NCBI RefSeq assembly: GCF_004121075.1
Contig: NZ_RHLN01000001.1
Span: 1-64,000 of the forward strand
Direction of reading: 5' to 3'
Source of the DNA: Lutibacter sp. HS1-25
GTDB lineage: Bacteria > Bacteroidota > Bacteroidia > Flavobacteriales > Flavobacteriaceae
Length of the DNA: 64,000 nt
The position numbers were made by a program, and so were the translations under genes. This document shows positions 2,318 to 64,000 of this stretch, in pieces. The notes under the pieces were generated by a model. The model was not told the origin of the DNA. It searched no databases and saw only the letters and a program-made list of their open reading frames with translations. The number at the start of each line of letters is the position of its first letter. Position 1 is the first letter of the stretch.

Positions 2318-3059
2318 TTTTTTTGTTTTTGTTAATAAGTTGAAGCGCAAAATTACGAAATAGCAGTTATTAACAGAAAAAAAAGACGTTGTTAATATTA
2401 AATTTTAAAAAGCTGATTAACAATTACTTTACGTTTTATTAACATTGTCAATAAGTTTTTACTTAAAAAAGAAAACTTTTTTTTGATTATTAATAAGAAT
2501 AGTTTAATGCAAAAACTGACATGAAATAACCAAATTTATTTATGATTTTTTTAACAAAAGTTTTTAACAGTTTTTTAATAGGTTCTTAACATTTTCAATT
2601 AAAATGTTATTCAAAAAAACAGTTAATTTTTAATTTTTAATAATTGTTTATAACCTATTTACTATTATTGATTTTTAACCTTTTATAAATTAATAACATG
2701 TTAATATCTATTAATAACTGATATATCAAAATTAAAATTCAGTTAATTATTGTAGCTATTAACAAACAATAATAACAACCAATCTTTTTTTTAAATTTTA
2801 AAAATCTTTTTTTTAATTATTATAGTTGTTAATAACATTTAAATTTTTGTTTCATTTCAAATTTTATTAAAATAAAATACTTTTTATGGTTTCTTCTAAA
2901 TAAAGATTTGTAAAAACTAGATTGATATTTTACTTTGATATTTAGATTACTTTAATCAAAAAATTATAAATTATGGTATCATTTTAATTTATATAAGTTT
3001 TAATTAACATAGTGAAGTCTTATATTTTGTATTTTTGATGTAATTATAAAAAATAATGA
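2318..3059. other. AT-rich intergenic region with TTATTAACA cluster (candidate replication origin)
   Basis: No gene is visible here. The stretch is extremely AT-rich and contains four exact TTATTAACA nonamers: 2330-2338 (-), 2367-2375 (+), 2436-2444 (+) and 2827-2835 (-). At least seven one-mismatch copies are present, at 2390-2398 (-), 2414-2422, 2548-2556, 2561-2569, 2583-2591, 2699-2707 (-) and 2756-2764. The nonamer differs from the classical DnaA box TTATCCACA at two central bases. Genes diverge from this point, rpiB leftward and rnr rightward. The right edge must also hold the rnr promoter. The origin call is an inference; only the motif cluster is observed. Confidence 0.4.
3030..3037 (+). 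promoter_or_regulatory. -7 promoter element of rnr
   Basis: TATTTTTG fits the Bacteroidota -7 consensus TAnnTTTG and lies 22 bases before the rnr ATG. No clear TTG (-33) is seen at the usual distance, so this is tentative. Confidence 0.4.
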
Positions 3060-5342
3060 ATGCCGAAGAAAAAAACAATTTATAAAAAGAAAGGGAACGT
3101 TATAAAAGATTTAACCAGAAAATTGTTAAAACTATTAAATCAAGATCCTAAAAATAGTTTTAATTACAAACAAATTGCTGCCAAATTAGATATAACAGAT
3201 CCTAATGGTCGTAATCAAATTATCCAAAAATTAGAAGAATTAAAAGGGCAAAAAAAAGTTGAAGAAACTGAACGTGGAAAGTTTAAAATTTTGCCATTAG
3301 ATAAGTATTTTATTGGAACTTTAGATGCTACAACCAACGGAAATGCTTATTTTATTTGCGACGAATTAGAAAAAGATATTTACATTCCGGCACGTAATTT
3401 AAACAGAGCTTTAGATAAAGATACTGTACGAATTTATAAATACAGTCGTAAAAATAGCAGTAAAGAAGAAGGAGATGTAGTTGAAATTATTAAGCGTGCT
3501 AAAACCGAATTTGTTGGTGTTTTACAACTAAATAAAAACTTTGGTTTTTTAATTGCTGATGATGCTAAAATGTATGCCGATATTTTTATTGCAAAAAATA
3601 AATTAAACAATGCTGAAGATGGTGAAAAAGTATTGGTAAAAATGACCGATTGGCCTGCAAATTCTAAAAATCCTTTTGGTGAAGTTGTTACTGTTTTAGG
3701 AATGCCAGGTGATCACGAAACTGAAATGCACTCTATACTTTTAGAGTATGGTTTACCTTATGAATTTCCTAAAAATGTTGAAGCTGAAGCTGAAAAAATT
3801 TCTTTTGATATTACTAAAGAAGAAATTTCAAAGCGCCGAGATATGCGTAAAGATTTAACTTTTACCATAGATCCAAAAGATGCCAAAGATTTTGACGATG
3901 CTTTGTCTTTTGAAATTATGGAAAATGGTAATTATGAAATAGGAATTCATATTGCTGATGTTTCGCATTACGTTCAGGAAAAAACTATTATTGAAGAAGA
4001 AGCTTATAAAAGAGCAACTTCGGTTTATTTAGTTGATAGAGTAGTACCTATGTTGCCTGAAATTTTATCAAACGGCGTTTGTTCATTACGACCAAATGAA
4101 GAAAAATTAACTTTTTCTGCAGTATTTGAAATGAACAAAAAAGGAGAAGTTTTAAATGAATGGTTTGGTAGAACGGTAACTTATTCCGACAAACGTTTTG
4201 CTTATGAAGAAGCACAAGAATTGATTGAAAATAATATAGACACTCAGCGAAATAATAGTGATAATAATGCCGAAAAAGAAGTTTCGTCTACGCTTAACCA
4301 GCAATTAAACTGTAATGTTTCTTCTGAAATTTCTATAACTGGTGAAGCTTATACAGTTGCACCCGAAATTGTTTCGGCAATTTTAAAAATGGATACACTT
4401 GCAAAAAAACTGCGTAAAAAGCGTTTACAGCAAGGTGCAATAACTTTTGATAGGGTAGAGGTTAAATTTAATTTAAATGAAAATGCAGAGCCTGTAGGTG
4501 TGTTTTTTAAAGAATCTAAAGACGCTAATAAATTAATTGAAGAATTTATGTTATTGGCAAACCGAAAAGTTGCCGAATTTGTTGGTCGTAAAAAAGGTGT
4601 TGCAACTAAAAATACCTTTGTTTATCGTGTTCACGATGAGCCAGATTTAGACAAATTAATGTCTTTACAGGGTATTGTTAGTAAGTTTGGATATAAAAAC
4701 AAAATTGATACAAAAGATAAAAAAACAACATCTTCTTCATTAAATCAGTTATTGCAAGATGTTCACGGTAAAGGAGAGGCAAATATGATTGAAACACTTG
4801 CAATTCGCTCTATGAGTAAAGCAGTGTATACCACTCAAAATATAGGTCATTATGGTTTGGCATTTGATTATTACAGTCATTTTACATCACCAATTCGTCG
4901 TTATCCCGATGTAATGACACACCGTTTGTTGCAACATTATTTAGAAGGCGGAAAATCTCCAAAAGCCGAAGGTTACGAAGAAAAATGTAAGCACTCATCT
5001 GATATGGAACAATTGGCTTCAAAAGCCGAAAGAGATTCTGTTAAATATATGCAGGTGAAATATATGGAAGACCATAAAGATCAAGAGTTTGAAGGTGTAA
5101 TTTCAGGTGTTACAGAATGGGGAATTTATGTTGAAATTATTGAAAATAAATGCGAAGGAATGGTAAGAATTCGCGATATAAAAGATGATTATTACCTGTA
5201 TGATGAAAAGCAATATGCTTTGGTAGGTCAATCAACAAAAAATCTTTATCAATTAGGTGATCACGTTTTAATAAAAGTAAAAAAGACCGATTTAGAACGC
5301 AAGCATTTGGATTTTACTTTGCTCGAAAAAATTGGTAAATAA
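3060..5342 (+). CDS. rnr: ribonuclease R
   Basis: A 760-residue RNase II/R family 3'-5' exoribonuclease that degrades structured RNA in the cytoplasm. In order it shows a basic N-terminus with a winged-helix-like region (about 1-75), OB cold-shock domains (about 75-240), the RNB catalytic domain with acidic metal ligands in DPKDAKDFDDALS (about 273-285), HFTSPIRRYPD near residue 620, and a C-terminal S1 domain from about 680. An Asn/Ser/Gln-rich segment at about residues 388-425 looks like an insertion inside the RNB domain. It has its own promoter on the edge of the AT-rich gap. Confidence 0.95.
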   Translation: MPKKKTIYKKKGNVIKDLTRKLLKLLNQDPKNSFNYKQIAAKLDITDPNGRNQIIQKLEELKGQKKVEETERGKFKILPLDKYFIGTLDATTNGNAYFICDELEKDIYIPARNLNRALDKDTVRIYKYSRKNSSKEEGDVVEIIKRAKTEFVGVLQLNKNFGFLIADDAKMYADIFIAKNKLNNAEDGEKVLVKMTDWPANSKNPFGEVVTVLGMPGDHETEMHSILLEYGLPYEFPKNVEAEAEKISFDITKEEISKRRDMRKDLTFTIDPKDAKDFDDALSFEIMENGNYEIGIHIADVSHYVQEKTIIEEEAYKRATSVYLVDRVVPMLPEILSNGVCSLRPNEEKLTFSAVFEMNKKGEVLNEWFGRTVTYSDKRFAYEEAQELIENNIDTQRNNSDNNAEKEVSSTLNQQLNCNVSSEISITGEAYTVAPEIVSAILKMDTLAKKLRKKRLQQGAITFDRVEVKFNLNENAEPVGVFFKESKDANKLIEEFMLLANRKVAEFVGRKKGVATKNTFVYRVHDEPDLDKLMSLQGIVSKFGYKNKIDTKDKKTTSSSLNQLLQDVHGKGEANMIETLAIRSMSKAVYTTQNIGHYGLAFDYYSHFTSPIRRYPDVMTHRLLQHYLEGGKSPKAEGYEEKCKHSSDMEQLASKAERDSVKYMQVKYMEDHKDQEFEGVISGVTEWGIYVEIIENKCEGMVRIRDIKDDYYLYDEKQYALVGQSTKNLYQLGDHVLIKVKKTDLERKHLDFTLLEKIGK

Positions 5343-49756: not shown

Positions 49757-51883
49757 CTAATGAATGTTTAGCTCTAATAAATTTTTAGTTGATTTTAACA
49801 TGTCTTCAATTTCTAATAAGATGTTAAAATACAAAGTAGCATTTTTAGGGCTAGATTCTGTAGTTCTAGTGCGTTCTACTTGCTTTTTAGCACATAGTGC
49901 AACCTCTCTTAATAATTGACTTATTTCCTCGTTTAATTCAGGAATATTTTTAAAAGCACTGTTGTTAAAAAGTGTACTTACTTTTTTACAAATTGCATCA
50001 ACTTTTAGTTGAATATCTTTCAATTCTTTTGATTGATTTTTCTTTAAACTTTGATGGTTGTTATTTACGTGCTTATGTGTAATTTTTGCAATAAAACCAA
50101 CTGACTGAGTAATGTCTTGCAATTCACCAATAACATTGATATAAAATGTACTTGCATCTATTGAAGATTCTTGTAAATTTTTAATAAAATAGAAAGTATT
50201 GTTTTGTAAATCTTCAATTTCACTTTCTAGTTTTAATACCGATTTTTTAGCTTTTTTAAGTACAGAAACATTTTCAGTAATTAAACCATCAATAGCGTTT
50301 TCATTAATCCTGTTAACGCGTTTAAAAACTTTAGCTATGTTTTTTGCACTTTCTACAACAACACCATCAGTTGAAACACTTTCAGTATGAGTTAAACTAT
50401 CTTCTTCTGGTACAAGTTTTGATTTTTTAATGTATGATAAAGAGTTTCTAATTATTAACAATACTGCAACAATTAAAAGTACAACTATCATAGTAATACC
50501 ACCAATATGAATTAAATAAGCAACCAAACCAGCAGCTAAAAACGCTACAATAGCAGTAAAAAACCAACCTCCAATTACATTTAAAACACCAGCAACTCTA
50601 TAAACTGCACTTTCGCTTCCCCAAGCTCTATCAGCCAATGAAGAACCCATTGCAACCATAAAAGTAACATAAGTTGTTGAAAGTGGTAATTTATAAGAAG
50701 TAGCAATTGAAATTAATACACTGGCAACCATTAAATTTACAGCAGCTCTTACATAATCAAAAGCAGGTAAATCTTTTGCTTTTTTAGAGTCTAAATGAAG
50801 TACAGGTTTTTCAAACTGTTTGTCTATTTTATCTAAAATTGGTTGAGGTGTTTTTAATAAAAAATATTTTGAAACTGCTTTTGAACTTCTAACCAATGAT
50901 CTTGATAAAAAATTAGGTTCAAAACGTTCTTGAGACGATCCTTCTCTCGATAAATTTAATTCGGTTTGGGTAACGTATCTGGCTTTTTTTGAAAACCACA
51001 AAGTTAGTACCATTACAATTCCTGAGATAAACAATAAAATTGTTGGTGTTGGTACTTTTTTAGCTAAGAAACTCATTTCAAAAGCATCAGGAGCAATTCC
51101 AGAAACAACCCAAGCTTCGTATGATTGGTATGCAGCAATAGGCACACCAATAAAGTTTACCAAATCGTTTCCTGCAAATGCCAAAGCCAAACCAAAAGTA
51201 CCTGCAATAATAATAATTTTATAAATATTAAACTTAAATATTGAAACTAACAAGTAGGAAACTAAAGACCATACAACCAAGTTTACCAGTACAATTAAAG
51301 AAACAAATTTTTCTAAAAATTCTTTAATTGTTAAGCCATTGGTTATGTCGTAATGCTCTCCTGCAAAGCTAGTACCTCCAATACCTTTCATTAAAATAAA
51401 ATAGATAATACCAGTTAAAGCAATACCTCCAAATAAAGATCCTACCCAATTTGGTTTTTCTTCAAATTTAAAGGAAAGTAACAATCTAGTTATGTATTGT
51501 ATCAATGCACCTATAGAAAATGCAATAACTACAGACAACAAAATACCGACAATAATTTCGGTGGCTTTTGAAGTATTTATATAATTTACAACATCAGAAA
51601 ATTGACCGTCGGCAGCACTAATTTTAATCAGTGCAACTGCAACTGCGGCACCTAACAATTCAAAAACAATAGAAACTGTTGTTGAAGTTGGCATTCCAAT
51701 GGTATTAAAAAAATCGAGTAACAAAATATCGGTAATCATAACCGCCATAAAAATGACCATAATGTCGCTAAACATTAGCATTTCGGGGTTAAAAATTCCT
51801 TTACGTGCAACTTCCATCATTCCACTTGAAAAAACAGCACCAAAGGCTACACCAATACTGGCAACAATTAAAATGGTTTTCAT
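49757..51883 (-). CDS. PiT-family inorganic phosphate transporter, main open frame (N-terminus split off)
   Basis: A 708-residue frame covering all but the first ~41 residues of a PiT phosphate transporter of the long Bacteroidota type. Membrane helices fill about 1-480, including FFNTIGMPTSTTVSIVFELLG and the second signature GNDLVNFIGVPI. A C-terminal PhoU-like helical domain runs from about 510 to 708. The normal first helix and first signature are encoded just upstream in the same frame but separated by a TAA at 51884-51886. The ATG used here follows that stop directly. The product may be non-functional, made by reinitiation, or reflect a sequence error. Confidence 0.85.
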   Translation of the reverse strand: MKTILIVASIGVAFGAVFSSGMMEVARKGIFNPEMLMFSDIMVIFMAVMITDILLLDFFNTIGMPTSTTVSIVFELLGAAVAVALIKISAADGQFSDVVNYINTSKATEIIVGILLSVVIAFSIGALIQYITRLLLSFKFEEKPNWVGSLFGGIALTGIIYFILMKGIGGTSFAGEHYDITNGLTIKEFLEKFVSLIVLVNLVVWSLVSYLLVSIFKFNIYKIIIIAGTFGLALAFAGNDLVNFIGVPIAAYQSYEAWVVSGIAPDAFEMSFLAKKVPTPTILLFISGIVMVLTLWFSKKARYVTQTELNLSREGSSQERFEPNFLSRSLVRSSKAVSKYFLLKTPQPILDKIDKQFEKPVLHLDSKKAKDLPAFDYVRAAVNLMVASVLISIATSYKLPLSTTYVTFMVAMGSSLADRAWGSESAVYRVAGVLNVIGGWFFTAIVAFLAAGLVAYLIHIGGITMIVVLLIVAVLLIIRNSLSYIKKSKLVPEEDSLTHTESVSTDGVVVESAKNIAKVFKRVNRINENAIDGLITENVSVLKKAKKSVLKLESEIEDLQNNTFYFIKNLQESSIDASTFYINVIGELQDITQSVGFIAKITHKHVNNNHQSLKKNQSKELKDIQLKVDAICKKVSTLFNNSAFKNIPELNEEISQLLREVALCAKKQVERTRTTESSPKNATLYFNILLEIEDMLKSTKNLLELNIH

Positions 51884-52009
51884 TTAAATTGCTTTAGAAC
51901 CGATGGCTGAATTTAAAAAGTTAACAGCATCGTTACTAACACCAACAACTAAATCTGCAATTGCCAAAATCCCTAAGGCAACAATCATAAATAAGTATAT
52001 ATTTTCCAT
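51884..52009 (-). pseudogene. severed N-terminal fragment of the PiT transporter
   Basis: Forty-one codons encode MENIYLFMIVALGILAIADL and continue through the first PiT signature GVSNDAVNFLNSAIGSKAI, then TAA. The stop is in the same frame as the downstream ATG of the main open frame, with no base between them. A single C-to-A change of a TCA serine codon would explain it. The fragment holds the first helix and half of the duplicated phosphate-binding signature. Confidence 0.75.
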
Positions 52010-52123
52010 ATAAATAGGATGTATTATTTTGTGGGTAAAAGTAAGTTAAATTTAATAATTTTTAGTTTTTTGAAAAGTAAAAAAAATGAGCGCCAAAAGC
52101 ACCCATTTATAATTACATAAATT

Positions 52124-52789
52124 TTATTTTTTCTTCTTATGTTTTAATACCTCAGCTTCTAAGTAAAAAATAATTTCTTCAGCAATATTTTTTATCAAAT
52201 CGCCAACACGTTCATATTTTTTAATTATTGCAAAAAGCAGTAAAGTTTGGTTAATAACACCATTGTCTTTTTTTATTTCTTCTTCAATAATGGCATATGA
52301 ATTTGCATTTATTTTATCTAAAACTTTGTCTTTTTTAAATACTTTTCGTGCAAATGAGGCATCTTTAGATTCAAAAGCAGTTGTAATATCATCAAACATT
52401 GAAGTAATTGTTTCGTAAATTTTATCGAATTTCAATACTTCAAATAAATTTGGTTGAATTTTTTTATCTTGGTCAACTATAATTCTAGATATACCATAAG
52501 CGTGATCTCCTATGCGTTCTAAATCAAAATTTATTTTTAGAACTGCCATTACAAAACGCAAATCAACAGCAACAGGATTGTATAAAGCTAAAAACTTTTC
52601 ACAATCGTTTTGCAATTTTAAATCTAGTGCATTTACCCTGTTTTCAGTATTTATTACTTCTTCAGCTAAGTCTGTATCGTGTGTTAAAAAAGCTTCAGTT
52701 GCTTTTTCTATTTGTGAAATGCATAATGACAACATTTCTAGCCCAGTTTGATTTAGTTGGGCACGTTCTTGTTCAGCATTTATAACCAT
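52124..52789 (-). CDS. phoU: phosphate transport system regulator PhoU
   Basis: A 221-residue PhoU with two three-helix bundles carrying the metal-binding motifs. These are visible as DTDLAEEVINTENRVNALDLKL and the second repeat with FKKDKVLDKINANSY. The gene follows pstB by 12 bp at the end of the pst operon. PhoU links Pst transport to the PhoR/PhoB response and prevents excess phosphate uptake. phoR and phoB are not in this window. Confidence 0.95.
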   Translation of the reverse strand: MVINAEQERAQLNQTGLEMLSLCISQIEKATEAFLTHDTDLAEEVINTENRVNALDLKLQNDCEKFLALYNPVAVDLRFVMAVLKINFDLERIGDHAYGISRIIVDQDKKIQPNLFEVLKFDKIYETITSMFDDITTAFESKDASFARKVFKKDKVLDKINANSYAIIEEEIKKDNGVINQTLLLFAIIKKYERVGDLIKNIAEEIIFYLEAEVLKHKKKK

Positions 52790-52801
52790 AAAAATATGTT
52801 T

Positions 52802-53641
52802 TTATCCAAAACGACCCGTAATGTAATTTTCGGTTTGTTTTTTGGATGGTTTTGTAAAAATAGTTTTTGTTTTATCGTATTCAATCAATTCACCTAAGTA
52901 GAAAAAAGCGGTGTAATCACTAATTCTACTTGCTTGTTGCATATTGTGTGTAACAATAATAATGGTGTATTTTTCTTTTAATTCGAAAATTAAATCTTCA
53001 ATTTTTGCTGTTGAAATTGGATCCAAGGCCGATGTTGGCTCATCCATTAAAATAATTGATGGTTCTACAGCCAAAGTACGTGCAATACACAAACGTTGTT
53101 GTTGACCACCAGACAATGCCAAAGCCGATTTTTTTAAATTGTCTTTTACTTCGTCCCAAAGATCGGCTTGTTTTAAAGCTTTTTCAACACGTGCATTGAT
53201 AAATTTTTTGTCTTTTATACCTTGAATTTTTAAGCCATAAGCAACGTTTTCAAAAATTGATTTTGGAAAAGGATTTGGTTTTTGAAAAACCATTCCAATT
53301 TCTTTTCTCAACTCTTCAACCAATACTTTTTTTCCGTAAATATTGTTGCCTTGTAACTTAATTTTACCTTCCATTTTAAATCCATCAACATAATCATTCA
53401 TTCTATTAAATAAACGAAGAAATGTAGATTTTCCACAACCTGAAGGGCCAATAAAAGCAGTAACTGTATTTGGTTTAATTTTCATGGTTATCCCTTTGAT
53501 AGCCATAAAATCTTCGTACCAAACTTTTATATCCTTAGCATCAATACGTGCTGCGTGATTTTCATCTTCAGCAATTGCCGAAGAAATATTTATATTTTTT
53601 TCTATTGCTTTTTCCATGGTTACTTTAATTTCTTTTGCCAT
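52802..53641 (-). CDS. pstB: phosphate ABC transporter ATP-binding protein PstB
   Basis: A 279-residue ATPase of the Pst phosphate importer. Walker A is GPSGCGKST (residues 65-73), the signature LSGGQQQR (about 172-179), Walker B ILMDEP, and the H-loop [22 protein letters not shown] precedes the fold. An N-terminal extension of about 30 residues is present compared with the E. coli protein; a second Met at codon 9 would start just after the pstA stop. It overlaps pstA by 22 bp. Confidence 0.96.
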
Positions 53642-54474
53642 TTATTTCTAAAATAAACTGCAATTCCATTCATTACAAATGTAATTAATAATAAGATTAT
53701 AATTGCTGCTGCTGCATTTTCAACAAAACCGTGTTGAGGTCTAGAAATCCAGTTAAAAATTTGAATTGGTAAAACTGAAAATTCATCCATTGGACTTGCT
53801 GGAGCAAAAGGTACATAAGCCAATGCGCCTACAACAATTAACGGTGCAGTTTCACCAACGGCTCTTGAAAGTGCTAAAATTACACCTGTTAAAATACCAC
53901 CACCTGATGCTGGTAATATTTGGTTCCAAATAGTTTGCCATTTTGAAGCTCCTAAAGCATAAGAGGCATCTCTTAACGATTGAGGAATTGCTTTTACAGA
54001 TTCACGTGTTGCAACAATTATAATTGGAAGAATTAATAACGATAGGGTTAACGCACCTGCTAAAACACTGGCTCCTAAACCCATAATGCGTACAAAAACT
54101 TCCAAACCTAATAAACCGTAAATAATGGATGGTACACCAGCCAAGTTAGAAATGTTAATTTCTAACAATGCCGAAAGTCTATTTTTTTTGCTGTATTCTT
54201 CTAAGTAAACACCAGCAGCAACACCAACAGGAAAAGCAATAATTGTAGTTAACAATAATATCCAAATACTGCCCATTAATGCGGTGTAAATACCAGATTT
54301 TTCAGCCTTTCTTGAAGGCAAATCGGTAATAAAATCCCAGTCAATACGCTGAATACCATCTATTAAAATGTCGCCAATAAAAACAACCAATAAAATAAGT
54401 GCAAAAAGCGTACAAGCTATTCCCCAAAATTTGAATAGCTGATCTTTCAATCTATTTTTTTGAATACTATTCAT
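53620..54474 (-). CDS. pstA: phosphate ABC transporter permease PstA
   Basis: A 284-residue inner-membrane permease with six helices. The cytoplasmic EAA-type loop reads [24 protein letters not shown] and the following [17 protein letters not shown] is conserved in PstA. It forms the channel with PstC. It overlaps pstC by 8 bp and pstB by 22 bp, which suggests coupled translation. Confidence 0.95.
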
Positions 54475-55345
54475 ATTTTTGTCTGTATTTTTTTCGAATG
54501 TAAAAACTCAAAGTGTTTAGTAAAAAGGTAAAAACAAACAAGGTAATACCAGCTGCAAAAATGGTTCTATATTCAATAGATCCATGTTGAACGTCACCTA
54601 AACTAACCTGTACAATGTATGCTGTAATTGTTTCTACAGGCACTGTTGGGTCAAAAGTTAAACGTGGTTGTTGACCAGCTGCAATGGCTACAATCATAGT
54701 TTCTCCAATAGCTCTTGAAATGGCTAAAATAATGGAAACTATAATTCCTGATGAAGCTGCCGGAACCACAACTTTAAATGCTGTTTGCAATTTAGTTGCA
54801 CCCATTCCGTATGAAGCTTCTCTCATTGCTTTTGGTACAGCGTGCAAAGCATCTTCGCTTAATGAAGATATAAAAGGAATAATCATTATTCCCATAACAA
54901 TACCTGCCGAAAGTGAGTTAAAACCTGATAAGTCTGGTATAATTTGTTGTAAAAATGGTGTTACTACAATTAAGGCAAAAAATCCGTAAACAACAGTAGG
55001 TATAGACGCCAATAATTCCAATAAAGGTTTTATTGTTTTTCTAAAACTTTTTGGAGCATATTCACTTAAATAAATACTGATAGATAAACCTACAGGAAGT
55101 GCGACTGAAATTGCAATAAATGAAGTTAATAATGTTCCTGAAAGTAGTGGTAATATACCGTAATGTTTATCGGTAAACAAAGGTGTCCATTGAGAATCGG
55201 TTAAAAAGTCTACGATAGAAACTTCACTAAAAAACTGAAAAGCTTCAACCGCTAAAACTGAAATGATTCCAAAAGTAACAGCAATTGTTATTAAGGCACT
55301 AGATAAAAGTGACTTTTCAATTACAAATTCTTTTATTTTACGCAT
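54467..55345 (-). CDS. pstC: phosphate ABC transporter permease PstC
   Basis: A 292-residue inner-membrane permease with six helices. The EAA loop is DALHAVPKAMREASYGMGATKLQT, followed by LAISRAIGETMIVAIAAG. LASIPTVVYGFFAL is the conserved helix-3 region. It is the first gene after pstS, separated from it by 75 bases that contain a large hairpin, so its expression is probably lower than that of pstS. Confidence 0.95.
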   Translation of the reverse strand: MRKIKEFVIEKSLLSSALITIAVTFGIISVLAVEAFQFFSEVSIVDFLTDSQWTPLFTDKHYGILPLLSGTLLTSFIAISVALPVGLSISIYLSEYAPKSFRKTIKPLLELLASIPTVVYGFFALIVVTPFLQQIIPDLSGFNSLSAGIVMGIMIIPFISSLSEDALHAVPKAMREASYGMGATKLQTAFKVVVPAASSGIIVSIILAISRAIGETMIVAIAAGQQPRLTFDPTVPVETITAYIVQVSLGDVQHGSIEYRTIFAAGITLFVFTFLLNTLSFYIRKKYRQKYE

Positions 55346-55420: not shown

Positions 55421-56374
55421 TTATTTATTGCTTTCAACAAAAGCTTTGAAGTTTTCTTTTTGTTTTGTGTAAAGTTCTGCAGGTAATGGAATATAACCAA
55501 CATCTTCAGACAATTCACCTGCGTTGTCTATGTAAAAGTTTACAAATTCTATAACTTCAGGAAGTTTTACAGAAGTACTGTTTACGTAAACAAATAAAGG
55601 TCTTGATAATGGGCTGTAAGTACCGTTGCTTACTGTTTCTAAAGTTGGTTTTACAACTTCAGTACCGTTATTTACACCTATTAAAGTTAATTTGTCTTTG
55701 TTTTCAGCATAGTAAGCCAATCCAAAAAATCCTAAAGCGTATTTATCTCCTGCGATACCTTGTACCAAAACGTGATCATCTTCACTTGCGGTAAAATCAC
55801 CACGGCTTGAACCACTTTTACCAACAATTGCTTCCGTAAAATAATCGTATGTTCCAGATGCAACTCCAGGACCAAATAAGTGAATTTCTTCGTTTGGCCA
55901 TTCTGGTCTAATTTGGTTCCATTTCATAATTACCCCTTGTGCTGCAGGTTCCCAAATCATTTTTAATTCTTCAACAGTAAAGCTGTCTACCCAAGTATTT
56001 TCAGGGTTTACCAATACAGCTAAACCATCATAAGCTACTTCTAATTCTAAATAAGTAATGTTATTTTCAGCACAAGCTGCTTTTTCTTTGTCTTTTATTG
56101 GGCGAGAAGCGTTTGATAAATTTGTTTCACCTCTTGAGAATTTTTGAAATCCACCACCAGTTCCAGATACTCCAATAGTAACTTTTACGCCAGATTGTAC
56201 TGTTCTAAATTCTTCGGCAACTGCTTCTGTAATTGGGTATACCGTACTTGATCCATCAACACTAATTGTACCTTCTAGTTGTACAGTATCGTTGGTAGTT
56301 TCTTTTTGTTCTTTTTTATTTCCACAAGCTGTTACAGCAAGTGCAATTGATAGGATAAATGCTAATTTTTTCAT
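55421..56374 (-). CDS. pstS: phosphate-binding lipoprotein PstS
   Basis: A 317-residue periplasmic phosphate-binding protein. The lipoprotein signal MKKLAFILSIALAVTACGN gives an N-terminal lipid-anchored Cys. ISVDGSSTVYPI, GVSGTGGGFQKFSRGE and SGTYDYFTEAIVGKSGSSRGD are the usual phosphate-pocket segments. The start is placed at 56374, where the lipobox-bearing signal begins; the longer open frame is not conserved-looking. Its promoter carries Pho-box repeats in phase at 56420-56480. Confidence 0.95.
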   Translation of the reverse strand: MKKLAFILSIALAVTACGNKKEQKETTNDTVQLEGTISVDGSSTVYPITEAVAEEFRTVQSGVKVTIGVSGTGGGFQKFSRGETNLSNASRPIKDKEKAACAENNITYLELEVAYDGLAVLVNPENTWVDSFTVEELKMIWEPAAQGVIMKWNQIRPEWPNEEIHLFGPGVASGTYDYFTEAIVGKSGSSRGDFTASEDDHVLVQGIAGDKYALGFFGLAYYAENKDKLTLIGVNNGTEVVKPTLETVSNGTYSPLSRPLFVYVNSTSVKLPEVIEFVNFYIDNAGELSEDVGYIPLPAELYTKQKENFKAFVESNK

Positions 56375-56402: not shown

Positions 56403-56480
56403 CAAATAAATGACTTTGCTGTTAAGTGTATGTTATGTGAAAATAAAATAAACATAAACACTTTGTTAAGTCATTGTTAA
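56403..56480 (-). promoter_or_regulatory. Pho-box array and promoter of pstS
   Basis: Plus-strand TGTTAA-type repeats start at 56420, 56431, 56464 and 56475. All are in register with an 11-base period (33 bases between the two pairs). On the minus strand these read TTAACA. The -7 TTTG (56403-56406) lies 13 bases from the nearest repeat and 29 bases before the ATG. Confidence 0.8.
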
Positions 56481-56492
56481 TTGGATTGCTTT

Positions 56493-57518
56493 TTAGAAAG
56501 CAAACTCTAAGTTAAGGTAAAAAAATGAAAGATTTTTTTTATCAATTTCTGTATAGTCGTGATTTCTGTAGTTTAGTGAAGTATTTATACCTTTTCTAAC
56601 TTTGTACTCTACACCTGCAATTATGGTATTACCATCTTCTAAATTATTCCAAGAAGTTTGTTCAGAGTTTAAAGTATTAGAGTGGACAATATCAAAACGA
56701 GCAAATACATCCCATTTTTTGTTTATATCGTAGGCACCATAAAATGAAAGTCCAGTTTCGTCGTAACCTTTAGCTAGTGTATTGTATGTAATTGCATTTT
56801 GCATTAAATTGTATTCTGCACCAATTCTAAATACATTCTCCATTTTATAACCTGCAAAAAATGCCAAGTTGGTCATTGTTGTTTTTGTATCTGGAATTTT
56901 TGAATCAATTCCTTTCATAACATCAACATATCCCTTTAAAGTTAAACTTTTAATAGGATTGTAAACCACGTTTAAAGCATATCTATTATTTCCTGTTTGA
57001 TCTTGTAGGTTGGTATAACCTTCACCATTAACAATAGTAACATCAAATCTAAATTTTTCACTAACTTTAAATGCCCCCATAACACCTAGGTCGGCACTTG
57101 CTCCAAATTTGTATTCATCGTCTAAAGATTTGTACAAATATCTATATTGCCAAAAATCTTCTTGTACTTTAAATTGTTGTAATCCAAAAATACCAGCAGT
57201 TAGCGTTATCCAATCGTTGGCTTTGTAGTCTAATTGCGCATTTTTTACAAATAAAGTATATTGGCTACCAGCAGAATTTTTACCAGCATCTAATAATACT
57301 TTGGCTGAAAATTTGTCATCAAATTTGTATTTATAACCAAAATAAACACGTGTTAGCTCAAATGCCCCAACTTGATCTTCGTTTGAGTTTGTATTTACGT
57401 GATAATTGAAATAAATTTTACCAGTAACGGCACCTTTTGGGTTTTCGGAATTTTCTTGCGAAAAAGTAATAGCAGACACCATTACAAAAAATACGAATAT
57501 TAATTTGTTTAATTTCAT
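56493..57518 (-). CDS. outer membrane porin, predicted Pho regulon member
   Basis: A 341-residue outer membrane beta-barrel with a signal peptide ending AITFSQ. Strands such as AVTGKIYFNYHVNTN, LTRVYFGYKYKFDDKFSAKV and the closing FFYLNLEFAF fit the OprO/OprP-like or DUF-porin group of Bacteroidota. Position next to pstS and a Pho-box array at its promoter indicate a role in phosphate passage across the outer membrane under starvation. Substrate specificity is inferred. Confidence 0.83.
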   Translation of the reverse strand: MKLNKLIFVFFVMVSAITFSQENSENPKGAVTGKIYFNYHVNTNSNEDQVGAFELTRVYFGYKYKFDDKFSAKVLLDAGKNSAGSQYTLFVKNAQLDYKANDWITLTAGIFGLQQFKVQEDFWQYRYLYKSLDDEYKFGASADLGVMGAFKVSEKFRFDVTIVNGEGYTNLQDQTGNNRYALNVVYNPIKSLTLKGYVDVMKGIDSKIPDTKTTMTNLAFFAGYKMENVFRIGAEYNLMQNAITYNTLAKGYDETGLSFYGAYDINKKWDVFARFDIVHSNTLNSEQTSWNNLEDGNTIIAGVEYKVRKGINTSLNYRNHDYTEIDKKNLSFFYLNLEFAF

Positions 57519-57547
57519 TATGAATAATATTAAGTTTTTAGTCGCAG

Positions 57548-57592
57548 CAAATAACCCACGCTAATGTTAAGTTAATGTTAAGAAGGTGTTAT
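57548..57592 (-). promoter_or_regulatory. Pho-box array and promoter of the first porin gene
   Basis: TGTTAA, TGTTAA and TGTTAT start at 57565, 57576 and 57587 on the plus strand, an exact 11-base period. The -7 TTTG (57548-57551 on the minus strand) is 13 bases away. The leader then shares GACTAAAAACT with the second porin gene. Confidence 0.85.
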
Positions 57593-57674
57593 TATAAAAA
57601 CAATATTTTAAATAATAAATACCATTTATAACTTGTTTAAACTTGAATATTGTTGAAGTTTGTTTTTAGATAAA

Positions 57675-57853
57675 AAAAGGGGCTGTTTAAAAAGCATCAA
57701 AACGCGTTATTCTGAATTTATTTACTCACATCCTTTAGGAATTTGTAAATCTACAATTTCAGAATCTCATCACATTGGAAATCAGCCATTGTGAGAGCCT
57801 AAATCAAGTTCAGGTTGACGAAAAGTTTACTTTTTAGACAGCCCTTTTAAGGG
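57675..57853. repeat. MITE/REP-like palindromic element with ~16-bp terminal inverted repeats
   Basis: GGGGCTGTTTAAAAAG (57679-57694) is matched by the inverted CTTTTTAGACAGCCC (57830-57844). Inside are shorter inverted repeats (TTCTGAA / TTCAGAA) and the run CAAGTTCAGGTTGACGAAAA, but no open frame. It looks like a non-autonomous mobile or structured repeat. The terminal CCCTTTTAAGGG palindrome may help end transcription of the receptor gene at 57865. Confidence 0.6.
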
Positions 57854-57864
57854 TTGAAAATTAT

Positions 57865-60429
57865 TTATTTGAAGTGTTTTTCGGCTTCAAAATCTTTCGC
57901 TTTTTTCGCTTTTTTACCAGTCATATTAAGAGCGTAGGTAACTCCTAATTCTACAATTGGACCGTTGCGAACATAAGTTGTTTCTTGGTAAAAAATTTGA
58001 TCGTTATTGCTATTAAATGCGTTGGTGTCTAAACCTTCAATATTTGAACCAAATATGTCTAAACCTCTTAATGAAAAGCTCCAGTCTTTTAATTTTTTTG
58101 GTTTGTAACTAAATGCAGCATTTGCTATTTGATAGAAATCGTTTTGACCTTGTGAGGTAATGGTTGCCGATTTTAAGTTGTAATCCATATTAAACTTTAC
58201 TTCTTCTGTTAGGTTTAAATTAAGGTTGGCTTTTAATGACCAGTTTGTGCTGTTATTGTCAATATCATAACCAAAAACTTCCCCTTTTATGGTGTAATAA
58301 TATAAAGATCCGCCTAAAAATAAATCTACATATTTACCTAAATAAACATCGGCATTTATTTCACCACCAAGTGATGTTGAGTTACCAGCATTTGTATAAC
58401 TTCTAATTAATACATTTTCTTGTAAAATATCATATAAATCTGGATTTTCAATAGCTGTTGTAGTTGTATTTACTCTAAAAACAGCATTGTTAACACCACG
58501 GTAAAAACCAGTAATGTCTAAAGTTGTTTTTTTAACTTTAGTATTGTAAGTTAATTCTACATTGTTGGTGTATTCTGATTCTAATTCAGGATCTCCAAGT
58601 ACATAAACTTCGTAGTGACGACGGTATAAAAATGGTGATAAGGTAGTTGCTGACGGACGGTTAATGCGTCGGCTTGCAGCCAATATCAAACTATTTTCAT
58701 TAGAAACAGGATAACTTAAATGTACAGATGGAAAGAAATCTAGTTTTGTATGGTCAAAATCTGATGTCCCAGAGTTGTTAAATAAGTTCAAATAATCGGT
58801 ATTTGTTACGTGCATTTTTTGATCTTCTAACTCTATTCTTAAACCAACTATATAGTCTAATTTTCCAGTTTTACCTGTAAAATCGGCATAACCAGCATAA
58901 ACACCTCTACGCATATCAATAGCGTTATTTAAGTCTTTTGTAACTAAATCATTATCAAAAGTAAAGTCTCCAGCAATAGCTACATTATTGCTTCTAACAC
59001 CTATTTTTAATGCATTAAAATCGTTGTATTTGATAGCATAATCTGCAGAAAAAATAAATCCGTGAAGCGGTGTATCATCAGCCATAGAATATTGTTGTTC
59101 AACAATTGAACCAGCAGTATCAGTAGTAGGATTGTAATCGTAATTTTGATTTGTAAGTTCTCTGCTTAATTGAGAATTTTCATAAGAACCTGCAATTTTT
59201 AAATTTTTATTTTCAGTAAAATCTATTGAATAATCGGCATTAAATGTGTTGTATTGTCCGTATCTATTGTCTGTATTAGGGTTGTAAATCCAATCTTCAG
59301 AAGCCAAGTCTTTATTAGAGCCATCAGCATCTGCATAATAGTTGTTGTAAATATAGTAAGCAGCTCTTCCTTCAGTTCTGTTTCCGTAAGAATACGTAAG
59401 CGAAAGTTTTTCTTTTTCACTTAAATTAAAATCTACTCCTGCATTTGCAGTGTAATATTCGTACCATTCAGGGCGTTCACCAGTGGCATCCATATGAAAA
59501 TATTCGCCTTCAGGAGCTTTTACCAAAACACGTGCTTCACCATATCTTTTTCCGTTTATATTTCTTTTATTGTAATTAAAACCACCATAAAACGAAATAT
59601 TTTTAGTGTTGTACATTAAATTTAAACCACCACCATATCGGTCGTTGTTCATTTTATAATCGCTGTATTTATCGTTAAGATTAGACCAAGGAGAACCTCC
59701 AATTAAACCATTTGCGCTTAATGATAAACCTTCAACACCATTTGTTTTAGTGGTAATATTTATAATTCCACCTTTTCCTTGAGAATCAAAACTTGCAGTT
59801 GGCACGGTAATAACATCTACTTTGTTTACATTGTTTCCAGCAATTTGAGACAACAAAACAGCTGCGTCTATTTGTGTTGGTTTTCCGTTTAAATAGACCT
59901 GAAAATTGGAAGTTCCTCTTACTGAAACTTCACCACTAGGATCTACAGAAACCGAAGGTAATTTATTTAAAACATCAGCAGCAGTTCCTCCTTTAGCAGT
60001 TTCAAAATCGCTAGGATTGTAAGTTTTTCTGTCAATTTTTGTAGATTGAATTTTGTTTGTTGCTGTTATAGCTATTTCATTTAAAGCTTCTGTTGAAGTA
60101 TTTAAATAAACATTATTTACAGTTATTTTTGAATGTTGTTTATTTACAACAATGTTATTTATGGTTTTTGGATTGTACCCCATAAATGAAACTTCAATAG
60201 TATAAGTTCCATATGGAATTGCGGTAGCCTTGAATTTTCCATTTTCATTTGAAACAATACCATCAATTGTTTTTGAAGATAAAGCATCAGTGATAACAAT
60301 TGTTGCGTAAGGAATTCCTTCTTTAGATTCGTTATCTAATACTTGGCCATTTATACTTCCTTGTTGTGCAAAAAGTGTGTTTGTTGCAATAAAAATAAAT
60401 AATGTAAATATTTTGAACTTAGCTGTCAT
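57865..60429 (-). CDS. TonB-dependent receptor-like outer membrane beta-barrel protein
   Basis: An 854-residue protein with a signal peptide ending LFAQQ. A carboxypeptidase-regulatory-like domain covers about 25-115 (GSINGQVLDNESKEGIPYAT). A plug domain follows with GGTAADVLNKLPSVSVDPSG, VRGTSNFQVYLNGKP and GKGGIINITTKTNG, and then a large barrel. It belongs to the Bacteroidota outer membrane beta-barrel family. It sits between two predicted Pho-regulated porin genes, though no Pho-box array was found at its start; instead an inverted repeat lies at 60460-60477. Ligand unknown. Confidence 0.87.
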   Translation of the reverse strand: MTAKFKIFTLFIFIATNTLFAQQGSINGQVLDNESKEGIPYATIVITDALSSKTIDGIVSNENGKFKATAIPYGTYTIEVSFMGYNPKTINNIVVNKQHSKITVNNVYLNTSTEALNEIAITATNKIQSTKIDRKTYNPSDFETAKGGTAADVLNKLPSVSVDPSGEVSVRGTSNFQVYLNGKPTQIDAAVLLSQIAGNNVNKVDVITVPTASFDSQGKGGIINITTKTNGVEGLSLSANGLIGGSPWSNLNDKYSDYKMNNDRYGGGLNLMYNTKNISFYGGFNYNKRNINGKRYGEARVLVKAPEGEYFHMDATGERPEWYEYYTANAGVDFNLSEKEKLSLTYSYGNRTEGRAAYYIYNNYYADADGSNKDLASEDWIYNPNTDNRYGQYNTFNADYSIDFTENKNLKIAGSYENSQLSRELTNQNYDYNPTTDTAGSIVEQQYSMADDTPLHGFIFSADYAIKYNDFNALKIGVRSNNVAIAGDFTFDNDLVTKDLNNAIDMRRGVYAGYADFTGKTGKLDYIVGLRIELEDQKMHVTNTDYLNLFNNSGTSDFDHTKLDFFPSVHLSYPVSNENSLILAASRRINRPSATTLSPFLYRRHYEVYVLGDPELESEYTNNVELTYNTKVKKTTLDITGFYRGVNNAVFRVNTTTTAIENPDLYDILQENVLIRSYTNAGNSTSLGGEINADVYLGKYVDLFLGGSLYYYTIKGEVFGYDIDNNSTNWSLKANLNLNLTEEVKFNMDYNLKSATITSQGQNDFYQIANAAFSYKPKKLKDWSFSLRGLDIFGSNIEGLDTNAFNSNNDQIFYQETTYVRNGPIVELGVTYALNMTGKKAKKAKDFEAEKHFK

Positions 60430-60459
60430 TTTTTATGAATTTTTTAAAACAATTTGCGA

Positions 60460-60477
60460 ATGTAATATAAATTACAT
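60460..60477. promoter_or_regulatory. perfect inverted repeat upstream of the receptor gene
   Basis: ATGTAAT-ATAA-ATTACAT, 31 bases upstream of the ATG at 60429. It may be an operator for an unidentified regulator. In such AT-rich DNA chance cannot be excluded. Confidence 0.3.
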
Positions 60478-60528
60478 AATTGTAAATTGCATTTTTTTAA
60501 AAATATAAATAAATGCTGTTTTGAGCAT

Positions 60529-60562
60529 AAAAAAAGGGAAACACAGCGTGTTTCCCTTTTTT
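60529..60562 (-). terminator. intrinsic terminator of the second porin gene
   Basis: The arms AAAAAAGGGAAACAC / GTGTTTCCCTTTTTT with a 3-base loop lie 19 bases past the stop of the porin gene at 60581. Confidence 0.92.
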
Positions 60563-60580
60563 GTTTTCTTTTTGTAGTTT

Positions 60581-61771
60581 TTAGAAATGGATATCAAATT
60601 GCAATCTCCACATAATTATATCATTTGCAGGATTGATATCTAATACACTTACGTCTGTTTGAACTTTTAATTTATGTCCAACAATAAATTTTGAAACACC
60701 TAAAGTATATTGATTTTCAGGAACTTTACCAGTTATAGCTTGGTCTAATTTTACATTAGAGTATCTACCTGTAACTTCCCAGTTGTTTTTAAATAAATAA
60801 CCACTTTGAAGGTTGTAACCGTGACCAACCTGAACAATATCACCTGTTTCGCTTCCATCAGAATTTGTTGCAATTGGGTTTTTAGCATCTCTGTTTGCAT
60901 ATTCACCCATAAAACTAAATCCTTTGTACTTAAACATAGCATCTACAAATACATCATTAATATTTGTTTCGTATAAACCATAATCGGTTGTCATATAAGA
61001 TCCTTGGTTTCCTCTAACTCTTACAGCGTTGTTGTTTAAGTTATAGGTTGCAGCAATAGATAATTTAGGTTTAGGTTCTCTTTTTAAATCTGAACCAGAA
61101 TAATCTCCTTTACTGCTAAAATTACCAAATGGCAACAATTCAACACGACCTGTATATTGAAAACCACCTTCGTTTCCTGTAACTACATTACGACCTTCTC
61201 CTTGTGAAATTGAAAGAATTTCTCTAATTACAAATTGATCAGCAATGGTAAAATGATGTCTTAATTGAACACCCATATCCCTGTCAATGTTAAATCTTGC
61301 ATTTAATATAGAACGGTCTACCAATTGTAAATCTGCTGAAGAAATTACACGTTCTCTGTTTCCAGGAAGTTTTGTTTGACCGAACCAAAACTCTAGATTT
61401 TTAGCAAAATTATATTTCATAACGGCATCCATAATAATTCTAGGTGTATTTCCTGTGTATACAGAAGTTCCAGAAATATCTCTATTGGCTAACCCTAATT
61501 CAAGTTTGTATTTAAGTTTTGGAGAAAAAGCAAAACCATCAAATTTTAAACGTGCTCTACGTACTAAAAGATTGGTTTGGTTAGACTCACCTTCTTCCCA
61601 AATTGAAGTTCCTAAAAATTGTACTCTGGCGCCTATATTCATAGACCAGGTACTGTCTTTTCCTACTAAATTAAAGATTCCTTTTCCAAATTTTGGAGCG
61701 TTTGTTTCTTGAGCACTTACAATAACCATTGTAAATGTAAATAATACAAGTAGTGTATTTTTTAATTTCAT
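60581..61771 (-). CDS. phosphate-selective porin OprO/OprP family
   Basis: A 396-residue outer membrane porin with a signal peptide ending VIVSAQ. The sequence WSMNIGARVQFLGTSIWE, VRRARLKFDGFAFSPKLKYKLELG and NLEFWFGQTKLPGNRERV is typical of the OprO/OprP (Pfam Porin_O_P) family, whose members pass phosphate or polyphosphate. The C-terminus MWRLQFDIHF ends in an aromatic residue as for outer membrane barrels. A three-repeat Pho-box array precedes it. It is a single-gene unit with its own terminator. Confidence 0.92.
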   Translation of the reverse strand: MKLKNTLLVLFTFTMVIVSAQETNAPKFGKGIFNLVGKDSTWSMNIGARVQFLGTSIWEEGESNQTNLLVRRARLKFDGFAFSPKLKYKLELGLANRDISGTSVYTGNTPRIIMDAVMKYNFAKNLEFWFGQTKLPGNRERVISSADLQLVDRSILNARFNIDRDMGVQLRHHFTIADQFVIREILSISQGEGRNVVTGNEGGFQYTGRVELLPFGNFSSKGDYSGSDLKREPKPKLSIAATYNLNNNAVRVRGNQGSYMTTDYGLYETNINDVFVDAMFKYKGFSFMGEYANRDAKNPIATNSDGSETGDIVQVGHGYNLQSGYLFKNNWEVTGRYSNVKLDQAITGKVPENQYTLGVSKFIVGHKLKVQTDVSVLDINPANDIIMWRLQFDIHF

Positions 61772-61800
61772 TATAAAATATATTTAGTTTTTAGTCAGTG

Positions 61801-61845
61801 CAAAGAACTTGTTACAATGTTAACTAAATGTTAAGACTGTGTTAT
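61801..61845 (-). promoter_or_regulatory. Pho-box array and promoter of the OprO/P-like porin gene
   Basis: TGTTAA, TGTTAA and TGTTAT start at 61818, 61829 and 61840 (11-base period). The -7 TTTG lies at 61801-61804, 13 bases from the first repeat and 30 bases before the ATG, exactly as in the first porin promoter. Confidence 0.87.
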
Positions 61846-61867
61846 TATAAAGGTAATATTTAAAATT

Positions 61868-61899
61868 AAAAAAAGCTACCCTTTAGAACAAAGGATAGC
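61868..61899 (-). terminator. orphan minus-strand intrinsic terminator
   Basis: On the minus strand GCTATCCTTT pairs with AAAGGGTAGC (one wobble) around a 5-base loop, followed by seven T residues. No minus-strand gene ends just to its right, so it may end a small transcript from about 61900-62150. Confidence 0.65.
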
Positions 61900-62145
61900 C
61901 TTACATTTCAAATTTAAAAGTTGACTAAAACTAAATATTATTGAAATGAAATGTTTTGTGGAGTAAATTAATTCAATGTTCAAATATCATACGTAAAATT
62001 GATTTTAAAGTAATCAAAATATTATGTAATTATTAAGAATTGTTGCTTGAAAAAAGATTGTTTTATAATATCCAAATTTTTGGGTCTATTATAATACAAT
62101 TGTAATATGTTGATAAACAGTAATATAAGTGTATTTTTAAAAAAC

Positions 62146-62201
62146 TTAATGTAAACTTAACGTTAACAAAACGTAAAATGAATGTAAATTAGGTAATTTT
62201 A
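62146..62201 (+). promoter_or_regulatory. Pho-box array and promoter of the MORN-repeat protein gene
   Basis: TTAATG, TTAACG, AAAACG and TGAATG start at 62146, 62157, 62168 and 62179, an 11-base period with the last two degenerate. TAATTTTA at 62194-62201 serves as -7 box, its TTTA 13 bases after the last repeat, the same spacing as in the other three Pho promoters. Confidence 0.65.
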
Positions 62202-62243: not shown

Positions 62244-62591
62244 ATGAAAAAATTAATTTTAGCAGTTGTTTTAATGTTTAGTATAACTGCATTTGCACAA
62301 GAACAAAAAGTAGCGTACAAAAAATTGGATAACAATTTAACGCAGGTAACGTATTATTTTGCTGATAATAGTGATATAATACAAAGAGAAGGTTTTTTTA
62401 ATGCTGATGGAAAACTGCAAGGAACCTGGATTAGTTATGATGTTGATGGTAATAAAATAGCCATTGCAAATTATAACAATGGTGTAAAAGAAGGTGTTTG
62501 GATGTATTTTAAAGAAGATAAAGTAAATGTAGTTACATACAATAATAACAAAATTACCAATGTTGAAGAAAAAGCATTGGTTGTAAATTAA
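62244..62591 (+). CDS. secreted MORN-repeat protein, predicted Pho regulon member
   Basis: A 115-residue protein with a signal peptide ending ITAFAQ. It contains repeated Y/F-G-W units of the MORN/YwqK type (GFFNADGKLQGTWISYDVDG and NNGVKEGVWMYFKEDK). Such short secreted MORN proteins are common in flavobacteria and are sometimes mis-annotated as enzymes. The gene stands alone between two terminators. Its promoter carries Pho-box-like repeats with the same geometry as pstS, so phosphate starvation control is likely. Molecular role unknown. Confidence 0.8.
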   Translation: MKKLILAVVLMFSITAFAQEQKVAYKKLDNNLTQVTYYFADNSDIIQREGFFNADGKLQGTWISYDVDGNKIAIANYNNGVKEGVWMYFKEDKVNVVTYNNNKITNVEEKALVVN

Positions 62592-63900: not shown

Positions 63901-64000
63901 TTAAAAGTTATATTTTAATTGTAATCCTAAGTTCATTCCTTGTTTGTAGTTTTCTAAAACTACTTCTTGGTTATTTGTAATTTCTCTTATTATTTTGACA
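63901..64000 (-). CDS. C-terminus of an outer membrane (TonB-dependent receptor-like) protein, cut by window
   Basis: Only the last 32 codons are visible, reading REITNNQEVVLENYKQGMNL and ending LQLKYNF before TAA. The final amphipathic strand ending in Phe is typical of outer membrane beta-barrels, and EYKQG-like segments with a closing barrel strand are common in flavobacterial TonB-dependent receptors. It lies immediately upstream of the beta-helix lipoprotein gene on the same strand. The family call rests on a short stretch. Confidence 0.6.
   Translation of the reverse strand, partial: VKIIREITNNQEVVLENYKQGMNLGLQLKYNF

Follow-up and report, generated by a model that had tools for sequence, protein, structure and literature searches.

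The first 64,000 nt of a 337-kb contig of Lutibacter sp. HS1-25 (genome 4.18 Mb, about 30% GC), here called the window, contain an island of phosphate uptake genes. Upstream of its phosphate-binding protein gene pstS and of two porin genes, TTAACA-like hexamers are repeated every 11 bp. What reads these repeats, and what do they do at Bacteroidota promoters with their -33 and -7 elements? We propose, with a probability of roughly 0.85, that they form the Pho box of Bacteroidota, to which PhoB binds head-to-tail, and that they stand in for the -33 element at promoters with a degenerate -7 box.

A fixed distance between repeats and the -7 box

The promoters of pstS, the porin at 56493 and the phosphate-selective porin O/P (OprO/P) have the same arrangement, a hexamer, 5 bp, a second hexamer, exactly 13 bp and then TTTGC (hexamer pair through TTTG on the minus strand: 56436-56403, 57581-57548 and 61834-61801; Table 1). 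At both porins a third hexamer stands in phase (57592 and 61845). Past the window, the promoter of a second TonB-dependent receptor (contig 66828-66750) has six in-phase 11-bp units with TTTGC at +13, and that of a CarboxypepD_reg protein shows the same array arrangement with TTTGT. The exact string TTAACA-N5-TTAACA-N13-TTTG is found at two sites in the whole genome, both of them porins. The earlier note had described four promoters with coding-strand arrays placed exactly 13 bp before TTTG or TTTA. This description stands for pstS and both porins, each with TTTG, and fails for the fourth, the MORN gene, in which the array lies on the opposite strand and none of the three TTT[GA] of the promoter has a TTAACA-like hexamer 13 bp before it.

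Sites of relatives show the same distance. When WTAACH pairs with 11-bp period were found before pstS, TTTG was located exactly at +13 in 14/22 (0.22 expected), and before other genes in 17/54 (0.59 expected), with TTTG at +24, which is 13 + 11 or one repeat further, in 15/54. Two marks of a Pho box, direct repeats of 11 bp and a constant spacing from the core promoter, are both found here. The -7 box itself is degenerate, and only one of 34 distinct forward sites, selected for TTTG at +13, carries the consensus TAnnTTTG. A TTG 17-23 bp ahead of the -7 box was found in 0/34. This number follows largely from the pattern itself and means little, since the repeats by design already occupy that region; it tells us only that the array stands in for the -33 element.

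According to our model, TTAACA direct repeats (consensus WTAACH) at every 11 bp, or one helical turn, would be bound head-to-tail by phosphorylated PhoB when phosphate is scarce, and the proximal repeat would occupy the -33 position, 13 bp before TTTG. These promoters are without the TA of TAnnTTTG, and their -33 place is taken up by the repeats, so the housekeeping sigma factor would be expected to need PhoB at pstS, the two porins, the CarboxypepD_reg protein and the TonB-dependent receptor. The repeats, their period, spacing and conservation, the genes they accompany, the degenerate -7 box and the array before phoB can be read from the DNA; that PhoB binds, in which direction it regulates and that phosphate is the signal are what we infer from them. 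Tandem binding and recruitment of RNA polymerase would be as in established PhoB biology (passages of PMC4415409 and PMC1906773). This geometry suggests how an activator may work at the unusual -33/-7 promoters of Bacteroidota.

Since TTAACA is common in a genome of 30 percent GC and loose patterns match in many genomes, the arrays might have arisen by chance. Controls with shuffled sequences, wrong periods and the wrong strand argue otherwise, shuffles never reach the pstS counts given below, and we consider chance to be next to negligible. To build a matrix, 30 distinct sites were collected with WTAACH at the loci of relatives; the matrix includes orthologous promoters and is thus phylogenetic footprinting, not independent discovery, while the plain TTAACA and TAAC word tests are matrix-free. 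In 83 kb of the contig the matrix found five sites (41.2, 31.5, 28.3, 28.2 and 17.9) against a null maximum of 16.0 in 20 first-order Markov shuffles. All five are located in the phosphate island, at the porin, OprO/P, pstS and, past the window, the CarboxypepD_reg protein and the TonB-dependent receptor. Triple arrays scoring at least 10 numbered 19 at period 11 versus 3-8 at any other period between 7 and 17. Taken singly, the triple arrays of the two porins and the CarboxypepD_reg protein (24.7, 21.2 and 19.4) are the only ones clearly above the null maximum of 16.9 from 15 shuffles.

The earlier note had also seen a shared leader in the two porins, and this proved correct. Each contains GACTAAAAACT, and an exact match to TTTGY-N3-GACTAAAAACT is found in these two leaders and nowhere else in the genome; relatives have the GACAAAAACTAA form. 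A leader word of this kind, GAC(T)AAAAACT(AA), stands 3 bases past TTTGC at different phosphate genes, namely two porin families and a Pit permease (L087), at loci including L038, L043, L057, L060, L061 and L087. It may be a start-site or translation signal.

Conservation before pstS and association with phosphate genes

The nearest named relatives of the window pstS are from Lutibacter (Flavobacteriaceae), with identities up to 89%. For conservation we used the best 80 of 162 named pstS loci confirmed by scan, 56 Bacteroidota and 24 not. Groups follow record titles, with two uncultured bacteria (L085 and L095) counted as non-Bacteroidota, and two loci titled Bacteroidetes only (L041 and L068) placed with other Bacteroidota in the pair counts and with Flavobacteriales in the triple-array count. 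Pair spacings before pstS peak at 11, and also at 22 and 33. A TAAC-type 11-bp pair was found in 32/42 Flavobacteriales loci, versus a mean of 2.1 and a maximum of 6 in 200 dinucleotide shuffles, and in 7/14 loci of other Bacteroidota (shuffles mean 0.5, maximum 3). With a looser hexamer spectrum the same 14 loci gave one pair at 11, thus the result for this group depends on the word chosen.

In a separate phylum sample of 118 genomes, 15 had a pstS match at E 1e-30, and 13 were left after removing our own genome and one weak match with an internal stop. Exact 11-bp pairs preceded pstS in 12/13 (500 shuffles: mean 0.23, maximum 2), while the other spacings from 6 to 24 reached at most 2/13, except 22 (3/13). 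The reverse strand gave 1/13 and the coding sequence none. Four of the 13 genomes are of one genus, hence by genus the count is 9/10, with L223 as the miss.

These counts bear on the idea that the repeats are simply promoter DNA inherited with each gene, orthologous or from a duplicated porin promoter, and have no regulator in common. Inside the genus, common descent inevitably brings conservation, and the window porins have both array and GACTAAAAACT leader in common. However, the same spacing occurs at unrelated families (pstS, two porin families, Pit, CarboxypepD_reg and phoB), and in the 9/10 genera with pstS pairs outside the family the spacer sequences differ. Inheritance of this kind therefore appears very improbable to us.

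Association with phosphate genes was measured with unweighted TTAACA triples (at least 15 of 18 matches) in upstream regions. They were found before 13/14 porins of the 56493 type, 8/18 OprO/P porins, 7/35 pstS and 4/16 receptors of the 63.9-kb type, 32/83 in total, versus 9/220 other genes, of which five resemble OprO/P-type porins by eye. Fisher's test gives p = 3e-13, which is overstated since orthologues share descent. On the 220 other genes, inverted arrays gave 13/220 and wrong periods (9, 10, 12 and 13) gave 2/220. In the remaining classes triples were found in 2/10 relatives of the 62.7-kb gene, in 1/13 MORN promoters forward and 5/13 inverted, and in 0/3 CarboxypepD_reg, 0/5 phoU and 0/1 pstB. 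The enrichment before phosphate genes on which the earlier note had let its proposal depend is therefore present. Arrays stand before pst and other phosphate-uptake genes, with most pit genes and phoX as exceptions, and the regulon of this lineage appears to be small, with Pst and outer-membrane uptake at its centre.

PhoB and the inverted arrays

The genome has three OmpR-family regulators (PF00486). One adjoins a PhoR-like kinase and has PhoB models as its two best NCBIfam matches (215 and 204 bits), while the best match of the other two is RprY. By best matches, which lie below equivalog cut-offs, the genome encodes a PhoB/PhoR two-component system. The DNA-binding domain of the PhoB-like regulator matches E. 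coli PhoB chains (1gxp, E 2e-14), with other regulators scoring higher, and each of the 25 genus genomes searched, our own included, contains a single match to the regulator at E 1e-60.

Upstream of phoB lies a conserved array, ATAACA-N5-NTAACA-N5-NTTACA-N5-NTTAAT, in the orientation opposite to the gene. A pattern of its first two units was found in 23/24 genus members with 200 bp of upstream sequence, and in the sole miss, L192, a degenerate array is visible in the alignment. In the 23-sequence upstream alignment the array is among the most conserved blocks. The alignment left out L211 (start probably misplaced) and L214 and L217 (other families); in the upstream set L212 had no upstream DNA, and no start was found in L213, L215 and L216. 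A consensus -7 box is present in 23/24 phoB promoters, at 55-57 nt from the array start in 20/24 and at 46 nt in this genome, by subtracting positions. In some other families, inverted arrays before phoB were seen by eye. PhoB may thus regulate its own gene through this inverted array, starting 46 to 57 nt from the consensus -7 box. Together with the pairs before pstS across the phylum, the conserved array at the gene of the regulator that best matches PhoB supports the Pho-box reading of the earlier note, with PhoB as the probable binding protein.

OmpR-family proteins commonly bind repeats of about 11 bp, and two RprY-like regulators are encoded here, so that another member, RprY-like or of the ArcA-like redox type, might bind the arrays and merely happen to serve outer-membrane genes. 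The nearest experimental case is Riemerella anatipestifer, a flavobacterial relative in which PhoP has the core TTTAACA by DNA affinity purification sequencing (DAP-seq), binds its own promoter in electrophoretic mobility shift assays, and phoPR is up in phosphate starvation (passages of PMC9603813). Core and own-promoter binding are like the system here; unlike it, the authors likened the motif to the one of E. coli ArcA, and it is linked to virulence and aerotolerance genes, the former a point in favour of the redox type (PMC9603813, same passages). The main text of that paper has no word starting with 'pst' or 'box', and its passages give no 11-bp array or -7 geometry. However, the Riemerella regulator whose DAP-seq motif matches has PhoR as its partner; from this partner, Riemerella PhoP would be the orthologue of PhoB here, and its DAP-seq core is the strongest outside support for PhoB binding. 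The conserved array before phoB and the 11-bp pairs before pstS across the phylum also argue against another regulator, which we regard as unlikely.

The MORN promoter belongs with phoB; it is an inverted array, not a fourth case of the porin and pstS geometry. On the strand opposite to the gene its four units read TTTACA/TTTACG/TTAACG/TTTACA. In the window and 13 relatives (protein identity 36-69%), coding-strand TGTTAA scores best at period 11 among periods 8-14 in 14/14, and TAnnTTT[GA] is present within the last 75 nt in 14/14. The distance from GTTA to TA, choosing among the listed positions, is 32 nt in ten and 43 (32 + 11) in one, and L052, L054 and L109 fit 35 or 46. An inverted two-repeat site was also seen elsewhere in the genome (G000:C22:49374-49407, L025), where it precedes a second permease, by eye of the Pit type.

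Forward arrays stand over non-consensus -7 boxes and inverted arrays, at phoB and MORN, over consensus ones, which is a new observation. Array orientation could be a sign code of PhoB, in which forward arrays switch on and inverted arrays tune or repress a basal promoter. We raise this tentatively, leaning rather against it; if it were true, the MORN protein would be regulated oppositely to the divergent OprO/P porin.

Contrary evidence and known Pho boxes

Several results weigh against the Pho-box reading. Of the non-Bacteroidota pstS, 5/23 readable loci (24 in all) also have 11-bp pairs (shuffles mean 0.3), hence the half-site is not phylum-specific. In the contig, the triple arrays of pstS (14.8 and 14.7), the receptor (13.3 and 12.0) and MORN (12.6) fall below the shuffle maximum of 16.9, so that the evidence for them is conservation. 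The array in an AT-rich stretch between genes at 2417 reaches 17.1. Most pit genes are without a box (3/26 forward and 3/26 inverted), and pstC has 1/39. The PhoB and PhoR matches are under the NCBIfam cut-offs (270 and 296 for PhoB). Unweighted inverted triples before phoB reach at least 15 in 5/32 and at least 14 in 28/32 (of 35 loci, two without a start and one without upstream DNA being left out), and wrong periods reach at least 14 in 10/32, hence there is no clean separation and the phoB case rests on the alignment. A loose form of the full site gave 46 matches in 149 Flavobacteriaceae genomes versus 33 for the reversed pattern, hardly an enrichment. In the literature, again from passages, pstS was up 8-fold in a Riemerella phoPR mutant (PMC5399024), and the OprP gene Fjoh_0542 of Flavobacterium johnsoniae was uninduced by phosphate depletion (PMC8115612).

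The gene phoX (PF05787), chosen as a positive control for the box, came out negative as well. It was found in 27/100 genomes at 30 loci, of which 28 were used (L142 is a fragment below the cut-off, and L145 the second piece of the L122 gene). No matrix match above 14 was found before phoX at these 28 loci; the single match, 18.9 in L128, lies on the opposite strand, past the PF05787 match. Triple arrays were found in 1/22, the 28 less two loci without a start and four with the gene off the locus end.

The loose scan itself needs care. A 12-bp-period pattern gave 25 matches versus 75 reversed in the same 149 genomes, which makes the reversed control unsteady and leaves the loose pattern with little weight by itself. 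By eye, 14/46 matches are at phosphate genes (pstS 3, OprO/P type 6, 56493-type porin 1, CarboxypepD_reg 4), and in this genome 4/4 are in the phosphate island, with none reversed. The strict TTAACA-N5-TTAACA-N13-TTTG was too strict as a scan, with three matches in two of these genomes.

Pho boxes in other phyla are partly alike. The Bacillus subtilis PhoP box has a TT(A/T/C)ACA hexamer with a period of about 11 bp, and TTAAC-like words are known from Bacillus; hexamer and period are like ours, and the Gram-positive promoters are unlike. The E. coli PhoB box consists of at least two 11-bp direct repeats, is bound head-to-tail and lies about 10 bp ahead of the -10 (passages of PMC4415409 and PMC1906773). 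It is alike in 11-bp direct repeats close upstream of the core promoter and unlike in its CTGTCAT core and sigma-70 -10; the window sites are TTAACA or ATAACA, not CTGTCAT, with a Bacteroidota-type TTTG -7 box 13 bp on. The cyanobacterial SphR box, with 8-bp repeats and a 3-bp linker, consensus CTTAACCT and at least three copies (passages of PMC1906773), shares the 11-bp period and differs in phylum and regulator. Thus the Pho box as a kind, the 11-bp rule in several phyla and, from these passages, TTAAC-like words in cyanobacteria are already known.

Work on Bacteroidota Pho regulons spans soil, sea and gut; expression has been measured in F. johnsoniae, and for Bacteroides fragilis there is a phoB mutant. 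In passages of the latter work, PhoB binds the pst promoter and is required for pst expression, and a Pho box is named once, without consensus (PMC3547664). The F. johnsoniae TonB receptor Fjoh_0545, only a candidate counterpart of the window genes, is induced by phosphate depletion (passages of PMC8115612); 'Pho box' and 'motif' are absent from the main text of that paper, and 'Pho box' from its sequel. Putative Pho boxes are marked in plcP clusters of marine bacteria, with one flavobacterium among the strains, and the passages of that paper give no motif (PMC4796936). In searches of open-licence PubMed Central literature we found no definition of a Bacteroidota Pho box. As far as these searches show, the box definition and the fixed TTTG -7 geometry are new, and so is the class of inverted arrays at phoB and MORN. 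Defining the 11-bp TTAACA box and its constant -7 distance gives a matrix for regulon prediction in Bacteroidota genomes.

Gene setting and minor observations

Of the genes in Table 1, phoU and the Pit permease were named by family search, and pstC, pstA and pstB from sequence and gene order. A TonB-dependent receptor gene on the minus strand lies in the island alongside both porins. The 115-amino-acid MORN-gene protein, probably secreted, had no match in a Pfam search at E 0.001. The CarboxypepD_reg protein past the window (contig 67279-66863, L031:4279-3863) has 127 or 138 amino acids by start choice. Proteins of this kind, about 130 amino acids with a signal-like start and a lone domain, have look-alikes in three other genera (L173, L181 and L187), and a Pho-type promoter precedes the gene in this genome and in these look-alikes. 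Such a lone CarboxypepD_reg domain is not known to have a role in phosphate uptake.

Table 1. Genes and putative promoter elements of the phosphate island (window positions)
Feature	Positions	Strand	Remarks
pstC-pstA-pstB-phoU and Pit-family permease (PF01384)	49757..55345	-	downstream of pstS
pstS, phosphate-binding protein	55421..56374	-	ATG start 56374; TIGR02136
TTTG of pstS -7 box	56403..56406	-	13 bp past proximal repeat
pstS array (putative operator)	56420..56480	-	six in-phase 11-bp units, four TTAACA-like: TTAACA 56480 and 56469, weak 56458 and 56447, ATAACA 56436, TTAACA 56425
Beta-barrel porin (PF13505)	56493..57518	-
Leader motif GACTAAAAACT, 56493 porin	57533..57543	-
TTTG of 56493-porin -7 box	57548..57551	-
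56493-porin array (putative operator)	57565..57592	-	ATAACA 57592, TTAACA 57581, TTAACA 57570
Phosphate-selective porin O/P (OprO/P) family (PF07396)	60581..61771	-
Leader motif GACTAAAAACT, OprO/P	61786..61796	-
TTTG of OprO/P -7 box	61801..61804	-
OprO/P array (putative operator)	61818..61845	-	ATAACA 61845, TTAACA 61834, TTAACA 61823
Inverted 11-bp array before MORN gene	62150..62193	-	four units; plus strand TGTAAA/CGTTAA/CGTAAA/TGTAAA
Consensus -7 box TAATTTTA of MORN promoter	62194..62201	+
MORN gene (name from the earlier note)	62244..62591	+	divergent from OprO/P
Second TonB-dependent receptor	63901..64000	-	3' end only in window; promoter past window

The array at 2417 was set aside as it sits in an AT-rich stretch of about 700 bp between rpiB and rnr (2341-3060). 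This stretch has eight TTAACA words, and its GC skew goes from negative to positive. Although TTATCCACA has no occurrence in the window, the stretch is a possible replication origin.

Among the loose matches, 11/46 were set aside because they precede, by eye, a GbsR/MarR-like regulator of about 165 amino acids with a different conserved motif with a palindrome (L153, L156, L157, L161, L162, L166, L169, L172, L179, L180 and L185). These promoters are strongly conserved, unrelated to Pho, and mostly end in the palindrome GTTCGGTTTGTTCCGAAC, which suggests autoregulation.

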